Below are positions 1-19,870 of a stretch of DNA of 30,448 nucleotides, piece after piece (the first letter of the stretch is position 1; the number at the start of each line of letters is the position of its first letter). Position numbers and translations under genes: made by a program. Location of the stretch: positions 1 through 30,448 of the IMG/VR virus record IMGVR_UViG_3300008735_000069. The stretch is one strand, 5' to 3'. This DNA is from a virus. The notes below the pieces were generated by a model. That model saw only the letters and a program-made list of their open reading frames with translations. It did not search any database and was not told where the DNA came from.

Positions 1-1677
1 TCTATTAAATTTCAAATTTCTAATGTTGAAACTTCCGTTTCTTCGTTTCCTCAATTTACATTAAGTATTCGTAATGCGAATGATGATGATCGGCGTCCGG
101 AAATTTTAGAATCGTATGCTAATATAAGTCTTGATCCTAATGAACCTAACTATATCGCAAGAGCGATTGGGGATCGTAGAGTAACTTATGACTTAACGCA
201 AGATCCGCCTGAGTTGCTTTTTGATGGTGACTATCCCAATAAGTCTAAGTTGGTAAGAGTCGAAATGAATACCGGTGGATATCCCGATGACTCTAGGCCC
301 GCGGGTTTTAGAGGTGTTGGTTCTATTCTTGCACAAACAGGTGGTCCTGCGCAGGGAATTGAACTCTCGGCCGGTTTATCTGGTGGTTTGACAGCTACAG
401 TCGCTTCATTACCTACGGTGACTAACCAAGTTCGTGACGGTGTTGTTGATAAGGTCAAGGTGATGGGTATTAACTTTGCATCGCCTGGTGTTAGTGATAG
501 ACTTAAGAAGACGGTTACTTCGGCTTCGGGTAGTACTACTGCTGATAATGGTATGTTATTCCTTTCCACTACTGGTGAATTGGGTGTTACGGGTGAAAAC
601 GTAGAAGATGATACTCCGGTAACGCCTGCAGATTTTACAGTTGTTAACATGGTTAGCTCTAACTCTGGTAACTTCGTTAATTCTTCTACACGCCGTTGTC
701 AAGGTTTGGAAGACAATGAAGCGCTGAAGTTTGTTGCCCCTGTGTTTAGTGGTTGGGATGGTTACGATCCTCGTAGTAATATGTTGACCATTCAAGATAC
801 GGGTACTGTTTCGGGTGATTTTGATGTAGCAAGAAAAACATTAGCTAATCCCGAAGAGGTTGAGTTTAATCTGTTGGCCGTTCCTGGTATTACTTCTTCC
901 GGCGCTGGCACACCGATTAATAACTTCCTTAATATGGTTGAGCAACGTGCTGATTCTTTCTTACTCATTGACTTAGCTAATTCTACTGCGACTGGTTCTG
1001 GTTTGGGCTTATCGGTTAGTAACGCGCAAGATCAAGCTGGTAAGTTTGATTCTAGTTACGGCGCTACTTATTATCCGTGGGTTAGAATTAATGATAGTGA
1101 AAATAATCGTCTTGTTTGGGTACCGCCTTCGGTAGAAATCATGGGTGCATATGCATTCAATGATAGAGTGGGTCAACCTTGGTTCGCACCGGCTGGCTTT
1201 AATCGTGGTGGTTTGGAAAGAGTATTGGAAGTTAGAAGAAGATTGACACAGACACAACGTGATAATCTTTACAATAACACTCCAGGCGTTAATCCTATCG
1301 CTACATTCCCAGGCCAAGGTATTGTTATCTTTGGTCAGAAGACGCTACAGAAGAAGCAATCTGTATTGGATAGAGTGAATGTTCGTAGAATGATGTTGAC
1401 GGTTAGAAAGACAATCTCTAGAATGTCTCGTAACTTCGTCTTTGAAGCTAATAACGCAGCTACAAGAAGTGCATTGTTGAACATGGTTAATAACTATCTT
1501 GGTTCGGTTCAAGCGGCCAATGGTATTAACGAGTTCAGAGCTTCTATTGCTGAAGGCGCTGATTTAGTGGACAGAAATGTTATCAAGGGTAAGATTTTCC
1601 TCAAGCCGACATCGGTTGCTGAAATTATTATCTTTGACTTTACACTTACTCCGCAGGGTGCATCGTTTAGTGAGTAA
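1..1677 (+). CDS. Contractile tail sheath protein (T4 gp18-like), 5' end missing
   Basis: This is the outer tail cylinder that contracts to drive the tube into the host. The frame is open from base 1, so the gene begins before the window; the ATG at 214 is internal. 558 residues are visible, against about 659 for T4 gp18. The first residues read FTLSIRNANDDDRRPEIL, then SLDPNEPNYIARAIGD, a typical conserved N-terminal sheath stretch. The C-terminal half carries the usual sheath signature: QPWFAPAGFNRGGL, then FPGQGIVIFGQKTLQ, then DRVNVRRMMLTVRKTI. The middle (roughly visible residues 90-330) is less conserved and is where sheath proteins carry surface-exposed insertions. It is followed by a strong hairpin and then the tube gene, the usual sheath-tube order. 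The family call is secure; the missing start is certain. Confidence 0.96.
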   Translation, partial: SIKFQISNVETSVSSFPQFTLSIRNANDDDRRPEILESYANISLDPNEPNYIARAIGDRRVTYDLTQDPPELLFDGDYPNKSKLVRVEMNTGGYPDDSRPAGFRGVGSILAQTGGPAQGIELSAGLSGGLTATVASLPTVTNQVRDGVVDKVKVMGINFASPGVSDRLKKTVTSASGSTTADNGMLFLSTTGELGVTGENVEDDTPVTPADFTVVNMVSSNSGNFVNSSTRRCQGLEDNEALKFVAPVFSGWDGYDPRSNMLTIQDTGTVSGDFDVARKTLANPEEVEFNLLAVPGITSSGAGTPINNFLNMVEQRADSFLLIDLANSTATGSGLGLSVSNAQDQAGKFDSSYGATYYPWVRINDSENNRLVWVPPSVEIMGAYAFNDRVGQPWFAPAGFNRGGLERVLEVRRRLTQTQRDNLYNNTPGVNPIATFPGQGIVIFGQKTLQKKQSVLDRVNVRRMMLTVRKTISRMSRNFVFEANNAATRSALLNMVNNYLGSVQAANGINEFRASIAEGADLVDRNVIKGKIFLKPTSVAEIIIFDFTLTPQGASFSE

Positions 1678-1767: not shown

Positions 1768-2262
1768 ATGGCTGAAGTTAGACCCGTAAATCAGATGCTT
1801 GCGGATACTTTTGAACCCAAACGAAGTAATAGGTGGTTTTTTGAATTTGCTGAAGATGTCATTCCGCAGTTTGTAGCGAAAACATTTGCGCGTCCTACTT
1901 TTACTCAAGACGCTGTTGTTATTGATTATATTAATAGCAAGAGATATTTAGCTGGTAAGTTTGAGTGGGGTACGGTGGCGATGACGCTTCACGATCCTAT
2001 TGCACCTTCGGCTTCGCAGAAAGTTATGGAGTGGGCGAGGTTAGCTCACGAAACAATTTCTGGTCGTGATGGGTATGCGGCTTTTTATAAGAAGGATTTT
2101 TCTTTGAAGCTGATGGACCCCGTTGGTGTTACAGTTGAACAGTGGGATATTAAGGGCGCTTATATTACAGATGCCGATTTTGGCGGTTTGGATTACACAA
2201 GTGGTGAGCCGGTAGAAATTTCTCTTACGGTTCGTCCCGATGAGTGCATTCTGAGATACTAA
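1768..2262 (+). CDS. Tail tube protein (T4 gp19-like)
   Basis: This is the inner tube subunit that forms the DNA channel inside the sheath. At 164 residues it matches T4 gp19 (163). Recognisable family segments are residues around 45-70 (FTQDAVVIDYINSKRYLAG followed by KFEWGTVAMTLHDPI), the following APSASQKVMEWARL, and the C-terminal half LKLMDPVGVTVEQWDIKGA followed by FGGLDYTSGEPVEISLTVRP. The start is supported by ATGGAG at 1755-1760, seven bases before the ATG. It lies directly after the sheath gene, the standard order, and is separated from it by a hairpin. Nothing looks truncated. Confidence 0.96.
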   Translation: MAEVRPVNQMLADTFEPKRSNRWFFEFAEDVIPQFVAKTFARPTFTQDAVVIDYINSKRYLAGKFEWGTVAMTLHDPIAPSASQKVMEWARLAHETISGRDGYAAFYKKDFSLKLMDPVGVTVEQWDIKGAYITDADFGGLDYTSGEPVEISLTVRPDECILRY

Positions 2263-2333: not shown

Positions 2334-3248
2334 ATGGCTGAACAAAATAAAGCCACTGTTGAGTTTGAAAATGACGAAGCAGTTGCTGAAGAAATACGTA
2401 CAGACATAAACCCGCAAGATATCGTTCAGAACCCTTCTGAGTATGCCGAACAAATGGCTGCTCAGAGAGGCTCTGAGATTGATAAGATGGCGGGTTTTAC
2501 TGTACCTCGCGATTATGTAATTCTACCCTCTAAGGGTAGAGTTTATTCAGTTGAATCTCCCCTATATAATATGGAAGAAATTGAAGTTAGGCATCTTACT
2601 GCTGCCGATGAAGATATTTTGACCTCTAGAGCTTTATTAAGAAGCGGAAAAGCTATTGACACTTTATTAGATAATGTAATAATTAATAAAAGTATTAGGT
2701 CCGAAGAATTAGTTTCAGGTGATAAGAATGCTATTATGACTTTTTTGAGAATAACGGGGTATGGTCCCGAATATAATATTGAGATTTCTTGTCCGGGCTG
2801 TGGTGAAGATTCTAAGGCTGAATTTGATCTTACCCAACTTAATATGAATATGTTAGATGTAAATCCAGTTGGCGAAGGGCTAAATAGGTTTGAATTTAAG
2901 ATGCCTTCGGGAACCATTATTCATTTTAAATTTCTCACAAGTAAAGAAGAAAAGATCATTTCTGATGAACAAGATAGAATTAAGAAGATGACTAATTCTC
3001 CTTTGGATCATAATATTACATTGCGATTACAGCATCAACTTATTTCCATAGATGGTAATGAAGACCCAACATATATTCAAAACTATATTAATGTAATGAA
3101 TGTTAGAGATTCCCGTGCATTTAGAAAATATTTTGATGAAGTTGAACCAGATGTTATTATGAAACAGAAGTTTACATGCGCTTTATGCGGCCATGGCGAG
3201 GAGGTGGACATACCGGTTACGGTAGACTTCTTTTGGCCTGACGACTAG
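2334..3248 (+). CDS. Baseplate/tail assembly protein (T4_baseplate, gp26/gp51-like), upstream frame
   Basis: The 304-residue product lies between the tube and tape-measure genes, where contractile-tail phages keep their tape-measure chaperone or hub-assembly gene. The N-terminal 55 residues are acidic and probably flexible. The folded part begins near FTVPRDYVILPSKGRVY and continues with EIEVRHLTAADEDILTSR, which resembles the T4 gp26/gp51-type baseplate family. Two CxxC pairs, C153/C156 (SCPGCGE) and C282/C285 (TCALCGHGEE), look like the two halves of one zinc ribbon. The frame stops at TAG 3246-3248, but a conserved-looking reading frame continues at once in the +1 frame to 3474. The GGAG site at 2321 supports the start. 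The exact T4 equivalent (gp26 or gp51) is not certain. Confidence 0.7.
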   Translation: MAEQNKATVEFENDEAVAEEIRTDINPQDIVQNPSEYAEQMAAQRGSEIDKMAGFTVPRDYVILPSKGRVYSVESPLYNMEEIEVRHLTAADEDILTSRALLRSGKAIDTLLDNVIINKSIRSEELVSGDKNAIMTFLRITGYGPEYNIEISCPGCGEDSKAEFDLTQLNMNMLDVNPVGEGLNRFEFKMPSGTIIHFKFLTSKEEKIISDEQDRIKKMTNSPLDHNITLRLQHQLISIDGNEDPTYIQNYINVMNVRDSRAFRKYFDEVEPDVIMKQKFTCALCGHGEEVDIPVTVDFFWPDD

Positions 3249-3474
3249 TCATAAAGATTATATTTGGGAAGAAGTTTTTGTTTGTGTTTATCATGGTCAT
3301 TTAACTTTTGTGGATGCATACAATATGCCCATTCATCGGCGTAAATGGTGGATAAGACAAATTAATGATATAGCTGATAAACAACAACGCCAACAAAACG
3401 AAGTAGTAAGAATGCCAAAGGCCGCACAAACTGGCGCTTCCTCATCATTGAGGGCTAGAGCAGTTGGTCGTTAA
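3226..3474 (+). CDS. Downstream frame of the assembly gene, probably made by +1 frameshift
   Basis: This frame is open from just after a stop at 3223-3225 to TAA at 3472-3474 and overlaps the end of the upstream gene by 23 bases. It has no ATG until 3325, yet protein-like sequence begins well before that: HKDYIWEEVFVCVYHGHLTF, then VDAYNMPIHRRKWWIRQIND, then a Gln/Arg-rich tail. The pattern 'DAYNMP..RRKWWI' is like the helical domain in the second frame of many tail assembly chaperones. UUU-U at 3231-3234 allows the P-site tRNA to slip forward one base just before the upstream stop, giving a fusion of 300 + 79 = 379 residues. The alternatives are a CTG start at 3238, a GTG at 3310, or the ATG at 3325, which would leave only 49 residues. 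Translation by frameshift is inference; the open frame is direct. Confidence 0.7.
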   Translation, partial: TSFGLTTSHKDYIWEEVFVCVYHGHLTFVDAYNMPIHRRKWWIRQINDIADKQQRQQNEVVRMPKAAQTGASSSLRARAVGR

Positions 3475-3543: not shown

Positions 3544-3846
3544 ATGATGAAGAAAAATAAAACAAATGAGGGTACTGGCGGCTATTATGATGTACCTTTT
3601 GATGAGCCAGAAAGCGGTTTAAAACAAATGGCTAAAGGCGCATTAATGGGTCTTGGTGTTGTTGGAGCTATTAGTTGGTTAGAGAAACATGGTGACACTT
3701 TACATGATAAACGCAATAAAGAAGAATTAAAAAAAGTAAAAAAGAGTTTAAAGGGGTATAAGTTTTCCAAAGCTCAATTAGATAAAAAAAATAAAGAAGG
3801 TATGAAATTAAAAGATGTACTTTCTAAGCTTTGGATGGGTAACTAA
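3544..3846 (+). CDS. Small basic protein of unknown function before the tape measure
   Basis: The 100-residue product is not recognised. The first 25 residues are polar. Residues 26-46 hold a Gly/Ala-rich, moderately hydrophobic stretch (QMAKGALMGLGVVGAISWLE) that could be an amphipathic helix or a weak membrane segment. The rest is strongly Lys-rich and looks helical (KKVKKSLKGYKFSK and so on). Two ATG codons are adjacent at 3544 and 3547; GGAG at 3535-3538 favours the first. It ends 13 bases before the tape measure, so it is probably co-translated with it. Position and charge suggest a tail-assembly partner or a minor internal tail protein, but that is inference only. Confidence 0.6.
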   Translation: MMKKNKTNEGTGGYYDVPFDEPESGLKQMAKGALMGLGVVGAISWLEKHGDTLHDKRNKEELKKVKKSLKGYKFSKAQLDKKNKEGMKLKDVLSKLWMGN

Positions 3847-10036: not shown

Positions 10037-10357
10037 ATGGCTATTTCAAGATATAATAAATTTTCACAAGTAAGATCTAACTCTAAAGACCCATATAGGC
10101 TAGAAACATTCCCGTCTATCAGTTCTGAAGAGCTGGACAATGTACCTCATAACGTAGTTATGTGGAAAGAAACTGATCGAATGGATGCAATGGCAGAAGA
10201 TTTGTTGGGCGATGCTCGTTATTGGTGGATCATATGCTTGATGAATGATTTAGTAAATCCTTTTTCTTATAAATTATTACCTGGCACTCTTATAAAAATA
10301 CCGCATGATGCTACGGTGGTGTCAAATTTAATTAAAAGAAAACAAGAAGGTAAATAA
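10037..10357 (+). CDS. Baseplate wedge protein with LysM-like fold (T4 gp53-like)
   Basis: This 106-residue protein has the conserved gp53-type stretch at residues 49-95: MDAMAEDLLGDARYWWIICL followed by NDLVNPFSYKLLPGTLIKIP. In the family this is a LysM-like alpha/beta fold that joins neighbouring wedges to the central hub in the baseplate and is not used for peptidoglycan binding. T4 gp53 has 196 residues; this shorter form with little beyond the LysM-like core is common in other myoviruses. The start is nine bases after the previous stop, with AGGATATAT as a weak ribosome site. Its stop codon overlaps the next start (TAATG, 10355-10359), so translation is probably coupled to the giant hub gene. 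Confidence 0.8.
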   Translation: MAISRYNKFSQVRSNSKDPYRLETFPSISSEELDNVPHNVVMWKETDRMDAMAEDLLGDARYWWIICLMNDLVNPFSYKLLPGTLIKIPHDATVVSNLIKRKQEGK

Positions 10358-16885: not shown

Positions 16886-17539
16886 ATGAAATATTGGGGC
16901 GAAGATCAAGAATACGCTGTTGTTGAGTTTAATACTAACGCAGACATGGATGAGAAGCATAAAGTTTTTGTAGACGTAATAGAGCCAGCCTTTCGCAAAC
17001 TTGTAGAAAACATTTACTATACTTATAATTTTAATAAAATATTGTGGGATAGAGAACAGATTGAGCATGAAGTAATGACCCATCTGTATGAAAAGTTAAG
17101 CAAGTTTGACATTTCTAAAAACAAAAAATCTTTTTCTTATTTTGGAACCATCACAAAAAATTGGATGATACAGCGATGTAATGCTGATAAGAATAAAAGA
17201 TTTATTGATGATGACAATCAAGATATTATTGTGCAGAATATTAGTATTCATGCCTATGAAGAAGATGAGGTGGGGCGACACAATGAAGAATTTATAAATG
17301 AAATCATTGGTGACTTTGATGATTGGGACGCAAAAGAAAATTATACAAGAGATGATTTCGCTGTTTTAGAAATAGTTAATGATATACTCAAAAACTATGA
17401 GCGATTTAATATTTATAATAAGAAACAACTTTATGTCTATATTAGAGAGGCAACAGATTTGCCGAGTCGTAAAATAACCAAGTCGTTAAAGAAAATAAAA
17501 TTGGATTATTTTAATGTTAAAGAAGATTTTATAGGTTAA
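16886..17539 (+). CDS. Late-transcription sigma factor, T4 gp55-like
   Basis: The 217-residue protein resembles phage sigma factors that redirect host RNA polymerase to late promoters. Residues 56-105 form a sigma region 2-like segment: DREQIEHEVMTHLYEKLSKF, then DISKNKKSFSYFGTITKNWM, then IQRCNADKNKR. The 'FD..K.K.FSYF..I.KN..I.R' order is the hallmark shared with T4 gp55. An acidic spacer follows (about 106-160). Residues about 180-204 (KQLYVYIREATDLPSRKITK and on) look like a helix-turn-helix, which T4 gp55 (185 residues) lacks. The C-terminus, LDYFNVKEDFIG, is acidic-hydrophobic, like the sliding-clamp-binding tail of gp55. It is placed between hub and spike genes, unlike T4 gene 55. AAAGGA supports the start. 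The sigma-like nature is fairly sure; the late role comes from the family. Confidence 0.75.
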   Translation: MKYWGEDQEYAVVEFNTNADMDEKHKVFVDVIEPAFRKLVENIYYTYNFNKILWDREQIEHEVMTHLYEKLSKFDISKNKKSFSYFGTITKNWMIQRCNADKNKRFIDDDNQDIIVQNISIHAYEEDEVGRHNEEFINEIIGDFDDWDAKENYTRDDFAVLEIVNDILKNYERFNIYNKKQLYVYIREATDLPSRKITKSLKKIKLDYFNVKEDFIG

Positions 17540-19336: not shown

Positions 19337-19870
19337 ATGCCACAATCAGCCGAAAATTTTGGTGGTAAACCAGCAATAACAGATCCTTTTTATCCGGATG
19401 GGTATACATCAACTGATCAAGATAGGCGTAGACTTATAGCGCAGAAAGAAAAATATGCACCAGCGGTTGGGTCTATTAATTTTAAATTCCCTTTGAAGTC
19501 GGTTAATAGAGGATTTTTCCAAGGTAACACTACTACTATAACAGCAGTTAGAGAAGATATAAAAACCTTATTAATGACCGTCAAAGGCGAAAGAGTAATG
19601 AATAAAAATATGGGTACTAATATTCCTGTATTAGCTGGTCAATTATTTGAACCTATTAGACAAGTTGAGTTATTAGAAAAAATTAAAATGGAAATAAATA
19701 ATGCAATCGAAACTTATTTACCTTTTATAAAGTTACAAAATGTGAATCTTACAACGAGTGAAGACGATCCAAGTTTAACTGTAAATCAGGTAAGGGTTTC
19801 TATGGCTTATATTATAAAAGACCAACAAGCTATGGCTGATAAAATTACTTTTACAGTAACATCTACATAG
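19337..19870 (+). CDS. Baseplate wedge protein gp25-like
   Basis: The 177-residue protein contains the gp25/W domain. The core starts with INFKFPLKSVNRGFFQGN and AVREDIKTLLMTVKGERVMN, then the conserved GTNIPVLAGQLFEP followed by the helix LLEKIKMEINNAIETYLPFI and a final beta sheet. In the family this domain primes sheath polymerisation at the baseplate and packs against gp6 and gp53 in the wedge. T4 gp25 has 132 residues; the extra 45 are an N-terminal extension (to about residue 48). GAGAG at 19324-19328 precedes the start by eight bases. It lies directly before the gp6-like gene, as in many contractile systems. Confidence 0.92.
   Translation: MPQSAENFGGKPAITDPFYPDGYTSTDQDRRRLIAQKEKYAPAVGSINFKFPLKSVNRGFFQGNTTTITAVREDIKTLLMTVKGERVMNKNMGTNIPVLAGQLFEPIRQVELLEKIKMEINNAIETYLPFIKLQNVNLTTSEDDPSLTVNQVRVSMAYIIKDQQAMADKITFTVTST

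Follow-up and report, generated by a model that had tools for sequence, protein, structure and literature searches.

A conserved YUU_UGG_C site in a phage tail gene very probably yields two proteins by +1 frameshifting

The window, a 30,448-nucleotide stretch of viral DNA, carries in succession genes for a tail sheath, a tail tube, a G-type protein with an overlapping second frame, a small open reading frame (ORF) and a tape-measure-like protein (Table 1), which is the gene order of G/GT genes. The two-frame gene falls between those for the tube and the tape measure; the latter is recognised by its position, its length and weak similarity to the tape measure of immuto (E 0.008) and to the correspondingly placed protein of Mel-JY01 (E 2e-4). 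For the small ORF (3544-3846, 100 aa), located between T and the tape-measure-like gene, no family was found, nor does it resemble the correspondingly placed ORF of Mel-JY01. The window also encodes a weakly matching gp53-like baseplate wedge protein (10037-10357), a gp25-like baseplate wedge protein (19337-19870) and, among the tail genes, a protein with a weak match to sigma-70 region 2 (16886-17539, E 0.005), possibly a late sigma factor.

Table 1. Features of the two-frame gene and its surroundings in the window, with the T4 genes used for comparison.
Feature	Location	Strand	Basis or remark
Tail sheath	214..1677	+	phrog_23, E 5e-56
Tail tube	1768..2262	+	phrog_4542, E 1.5e-26
G-type protein, frame 0 product, 304 aa	2334..3248	+	ORF; PF12322 T4_baseplate / phrog_150
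Putative frameshift fusion GT, 379 aa, base 3234 skipped	2334..3474 (join 2334-3233, 3235-3474)	+	deduced product
Anti-SD hexamer GGAGGT inside the gene, starting 31 nt 5' of the P-site codon	3200..3205	+	candidate stimulator
+1-frame ORF; T domain read from 3232 to 3471 (FGLTTSHKDYIWEEVF...DAYNMPIHRRKWW...), stop 3472-3474	3226..3474	+	
+1 slip site: P-site UUU 3231-3233, A-site UGG 3234-3236, then C	3231..3237	+	sequence; kept in 100 relatives
Re-pairing codon at the slip, UUU	3232..3234	+	
Frame-0 stop TAG, ends the short product	3246..3248	+	sequence
Tape-measure-like protein, 1330 aa	3860..7852	+	position, length, weak matches
T4 gene 26	L113 3803-4429		gp26 without T domain
T4 gene 51	L113 4480-5229		gp51 with T domain in frame

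The frame 0 product, G, passes the curated Pfam cut-off for PF12322 (50.1 bits against 24.5, E 3.6e-13) and matches the baseplate hub family phrog_150 in PHROG (E 3.2e-15). The +1 frame encodes a further domain, T; its first ATG lies deep within the conserved domain, with no ATG, GTG or TTG 5' of the domain in the window sequence. A sequence-only reading had placed the frame-0 stop at 3246-3248, the open +1 frame at 3226-3474 and a TTTT run at 3231-3234 followed by GGC, and had proposed that a programmed +1 shift at UUU_U joins a gp26/gp51-type (PF12322) protein to a tail-chaperone-like domain that begins before its first ATG. The coordinates and the place of the ATG hold, and the comparative evidence below agrees with the proposed shift.

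T is under purifying selection, with a dN/dS of 0.16 between the window and L011, a 75% relative, and of 0.01-0.36 in the other computable pairs. The family DUF6760 (PF20546) was matched by 15 of 27 T members (best E 4.2e-5); the window T scores 14.7 bits against a curated cut-off of 27 and is therefore a distant relative only. This selection and family resemblance, together with a slip site that is near-invariant in 100 relatives, argue that the +1 domain is not a product of chance. PF20546 was not found in a search of two genomes and 14 control genomes, and was present in 3 of 297 genomes of one phylum. Relatives of the window protein were not found in plasmids.

AlphaFold models were made of G and of T separately. 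The T model (pLDDT 82) has three main helices, and a fold search of it against the PDB gave no match. The G model (pLDDT 87) matches the SP-15 hub and T4-like hub assembly proteins in BFVD. Against the PDB, a sequence search with G found no match, and the only more-than-trivial-probability match to the model among the 50 PDB matches listed was the HK97 tail assembly chaperone gp13 (2ob9_B; weak, probability 0.41, TM 0.47 on the target, E 1.4), a predicted likeness that is suggestive, not significant.

A tblastn search of annotated phages gave 19 records with a PF12322 relative, while a scan of viral contigs gave 80 loci kept of 598 matches and a scan of genome contigs 17. The YUU-site set (n = 100) comprises 98 loci from the scans, the close relatives and the window, together with Mel-JY01 and immuto; these counts do not represent independent events, the clade was sampled by PF12322 similarity, and in three of the loci (L010, L044 and L045) the contig ends within the +1 frame. 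The +1 frame carries T in all 100. Further, a related domain continues in the +1 frame past the stop in Mel-JY01, immuto, SP-15, GXN1, LR756508, LIS04, BRock and GiJojo. The second frame is conserved and joined to G by a conserved slip site: across the 100 relatives the site is near-invariant as YUU_UGG_C, and the stop follows 2-5 codons later in nearly all of them. The arrangement had earlier been called unusual for the gp26/gp51 family; within this gene family it is the rule.

The composition of the site points to the mechanism. The P-site codon is UUU in 88 loci, CUU in 12 and UUC in none, the codon 5' of it is either UUU (85 loci) or UUC (15), and the A-site codon is UGG in 97, although Trp is rare elsewhere in these genes (30 of 23,535 codons). 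UUC makes up 28% of their Phe codons, and its absence from the P site of 84 non-redundant loci has a nominal P of 2e-11, calculated from the genes' own codon use with phylogeny ignored. As UUC is synonymous in frame 0 yet never occupies the P site, re-pairing on UUU is the likely constraint. Both CUU_U and UUU_U are +1-prone sites in tests with the RF2 gene, and in E. coli UUU_U shifts less readily than CUU_U (PMC5009743). Re-pairing by the Phe tRNA at TTTT, as first proposed, fits the UUU loci; the site is broader in the relatives, where Leu-CUU works too.

The main alternative, to which we assign a slim chance, is that T is a separate protein made without frameshifting, from a non-AUG start or by re-initiation near the G stop. 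Such an arrangement has precedent in distant relatives, since T of L007 and L123 has its own ATG overlapping the G stop and one locus of an extracellular contractile injection system (eCIS), L205, has a separate DUF6760 ORF; the strong internal GGAGGT upstream would also suit it. An own start codon in homologues had been named as evidence that would speak against the shift, and it is conserved in no near relative. In the +1 frame, as far as 12 codons beyond the slip, 71 of the 100 loci have no ATG and 44 have none of ATG, GTG and TTG, and a conserved start codon for T was rejected. Were T started at Shine–Dalgarno (SD) distance from GGAGGT, translation would in about half of the loci run into a +1-frame stop ahead of T, such a stop lying at most 12 codons before the slip in 55 of 100 (TAG 3223-3225 in the window). 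Initiation would also leave the conserved P-site wobble base and the UGG codon unexplained.

Slightly less probable still is a real shift of another kind, namely transcriptional slippage on the T run or a -2 ribosomal shift. A run of seven T in 62 of the 84 non-redundant loci would favour either. However, the runs are only 3-4 T long in 21 of the 84, the window included, and in the CUU variants the P-site tRNA would be unable to re-pair at -2. Both were rejected as the main route on these grounds, and of the earlier wording '+1 (or -2)' the first part stands while the second is disfavoured by the CUU variants. Ribosomal +1 slippage is favoured over both because of these variants and the T runs broken by UUC. 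A -1 heptamer of the X_XXY_YYZ type, with its product in the -1 frame, does not describe the set, since every one of the 100 loci has T in the +1 frame. No downstream RNA structure is conspicuous, z being -0.3 to -0.8 in the region of the slip, as in controls. That a sequencing error or gene decay has split one ORF has a negligible chance: the window is a single contig, but two contigs (L008 and L009) are identical at the site, the 75% relative L011 and the 100 relatives keep the arrangement, and T is under purifying selection, so that an error, which the earlier reading had listed against itself, is refuted by the relatives.

Collectively, the gene order, the selection on T, the conserved slip site and upstream GGAGGT, and the ways in which other lineages join the two domains (below) make it highly likely that 2334-3474 encodes tail assembly chaperones of the G/GT type in a contractile-tailed phage, with GT made by a +1 slip, and two proteins very probably arise from this one gene by slippage at a fixed spot. 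Most ribosomes would end at 3246 and release G. In a smaller share of ribosomes, the peptidyl-tRNA on UUU 3231-3233, next to an A site occupied by the rare Trp codon UGG, would slip one base forward onto UUU 3232-3234 and reading would continue with GGC CUG..., giving GT with an extra helical, DUF6760-like T domain. The chaperone function is suggested by position and homology. If lambda is a guide, the tape measure would be coated by many copies of G and few of GT, T would recruit tube subunits, and both proteins would be absent from the finished virion.

The upstream GGAGGT is a real element with a candidate role only. An exact GGAGGT occurs within 45 nt 5' of the slip in 64 of the 100 loci (first G at -31 in 39 and at -25 in 21), so spaced that 25 or 19 nt separate it from the slip in most relatives (seen across L012-L107), and elsewhere in these genes only 6 times in 76,242 nt. 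Near the slip, 64 of 72 Glu-Val pairs are coded via GGAGGT, against 5 of 142 elsewhere. Further, codons -12 to -2 show an excess of G at the third position (z mostly about 3 to 12, 1.0 at -5; calibrated background maximum 2.8), and SD-like 4-mers occur near the slip in 29 of 100 loci against 3-15 in controls. The frameshift site of the RF2 gene (prfB), CUU_UGA_C, resembles the present one in its YUU_UGR_C slip, its +1 direction and its re-pairing on UUU. The RF2 gene has its SD some 3 nt away from the slip codon, whereas here the GGAGGT starts 31 or 25 nt upstream; the site also differs in having a sense codon, UGG, in the A site, with no release-factor autoregulation, and is thus not of the RF2 type. 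To our knowledge, GGAGGT at 19-25 nt fits no known +1 rule.

The locus shares with lambda G/GT two overlapping frames between the tube and tape measure genes and, very probably, a short product accompanied by a rarer one extended by programmed frameshifting (Xu, Hendrix and Duda 2004, cited in PMC5009743). It differs from lambda in shifting by +1 rather than -1, in its slip site YUU_UGG_C and in a G protein of PF12322, for which the tests done gave no significant similarity to lambda-type G. Tail genes of the archaeal myovirus HSTV-2 and of the Listeria phages PSA, A118 and A500 also use +1 frameshifting; in the Listeria phages the sites are CCC and the major tail protein is extended (PMC5009743).

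Other lineages join the same two domains differently. In kyanovirus-type cyanophages, including S-CAM8, the gp26-type genes (L121 and L125-L204) have the same G and T domains and a frameshift at the same FF point; unlike in the window, T is in the -1 frame, after the canonical -1 heptamer U_UUU_UUN, in 78 of 78 readable loci. SD-like 5-mers, often GGAGG, precede this heptamer by about 10 nt in roughly a third. Atu_ph07 likewise has T in the -1 frame, and it has a heptamer as well as an ATG. In the bacterial loci L206 and L207, identified as eCIS by the presence of a Pvc16_N gene, PF12322 and DUF6760 are fused in one frame, joined at SFF, and so meet at the same FF point as the slip.

In T4, gp26 matches G and gp51 matches G plus T; T4 differs from the window in having two separate genes, with T in frame with gp51, the two domains again meeting at the FF point, and no frameshift. 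Profile comparison of the gp26 and gp51 families gave 99.5% (E 2.9e-22), over gp51 columns 3-203 only, and no match was found between T and gp26. Cyanophage T matched the gp51 C-terminus (97.2%, E 3.5e-11; score 65.9, where 200 column shuffles reached at most 26.6) and window-type T (96.0%, E 4e-9; score 45.9 against a shuffle maximum of 18.9); the direct match of window-type T to gp51 was weak (23.4 against 21.3). These profiles suggest that T4 gp26 is probably G and gp51 probably GT, encoded as two separate genes. With somewhat less assurance than for the window gene itself, we favour a wider reading, in which PF12322 and DUF6760-like domains would be the G/GT pair in T4-type contractile tails generally, brought together by +1 or -1 frameshifting or in-frame fusion, or encoded as separate genes, depending on lineage; T4 would be no exception, its G (gp26) and GT (gp51) being paralogous, and the far-upstream GGAGGT would represent a novel type of cis element in +1 frameshifting.

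A 2016 review describes G/GT frameshifting as widely conserved in long-tailed phages, T4 excepted (PMC5009743), and gp51 of T4 is needed for assembly, absent from the particle and unclear in its role (PMC3004832). Should gp26 and gp51 prove to be G and GT, the T4 exception would disappear and the unclear role of gp51 would gain a testable explanation. Full-text searches of open-access papers gave no description of this frameshift or of this reading of gp26/gp51. With its unusual uniformity across a large environmental clade, the +1 site lends itself well as a natural system in which to study +1 slippage. As for existing annotation, the frameshift is unannotated in the S-CAM8 record examined, and the records of immuto, SP-15, BRock, GiJojo, S-CAM8 and LIS04 either omit T or annotate it truncated or from an internal start.
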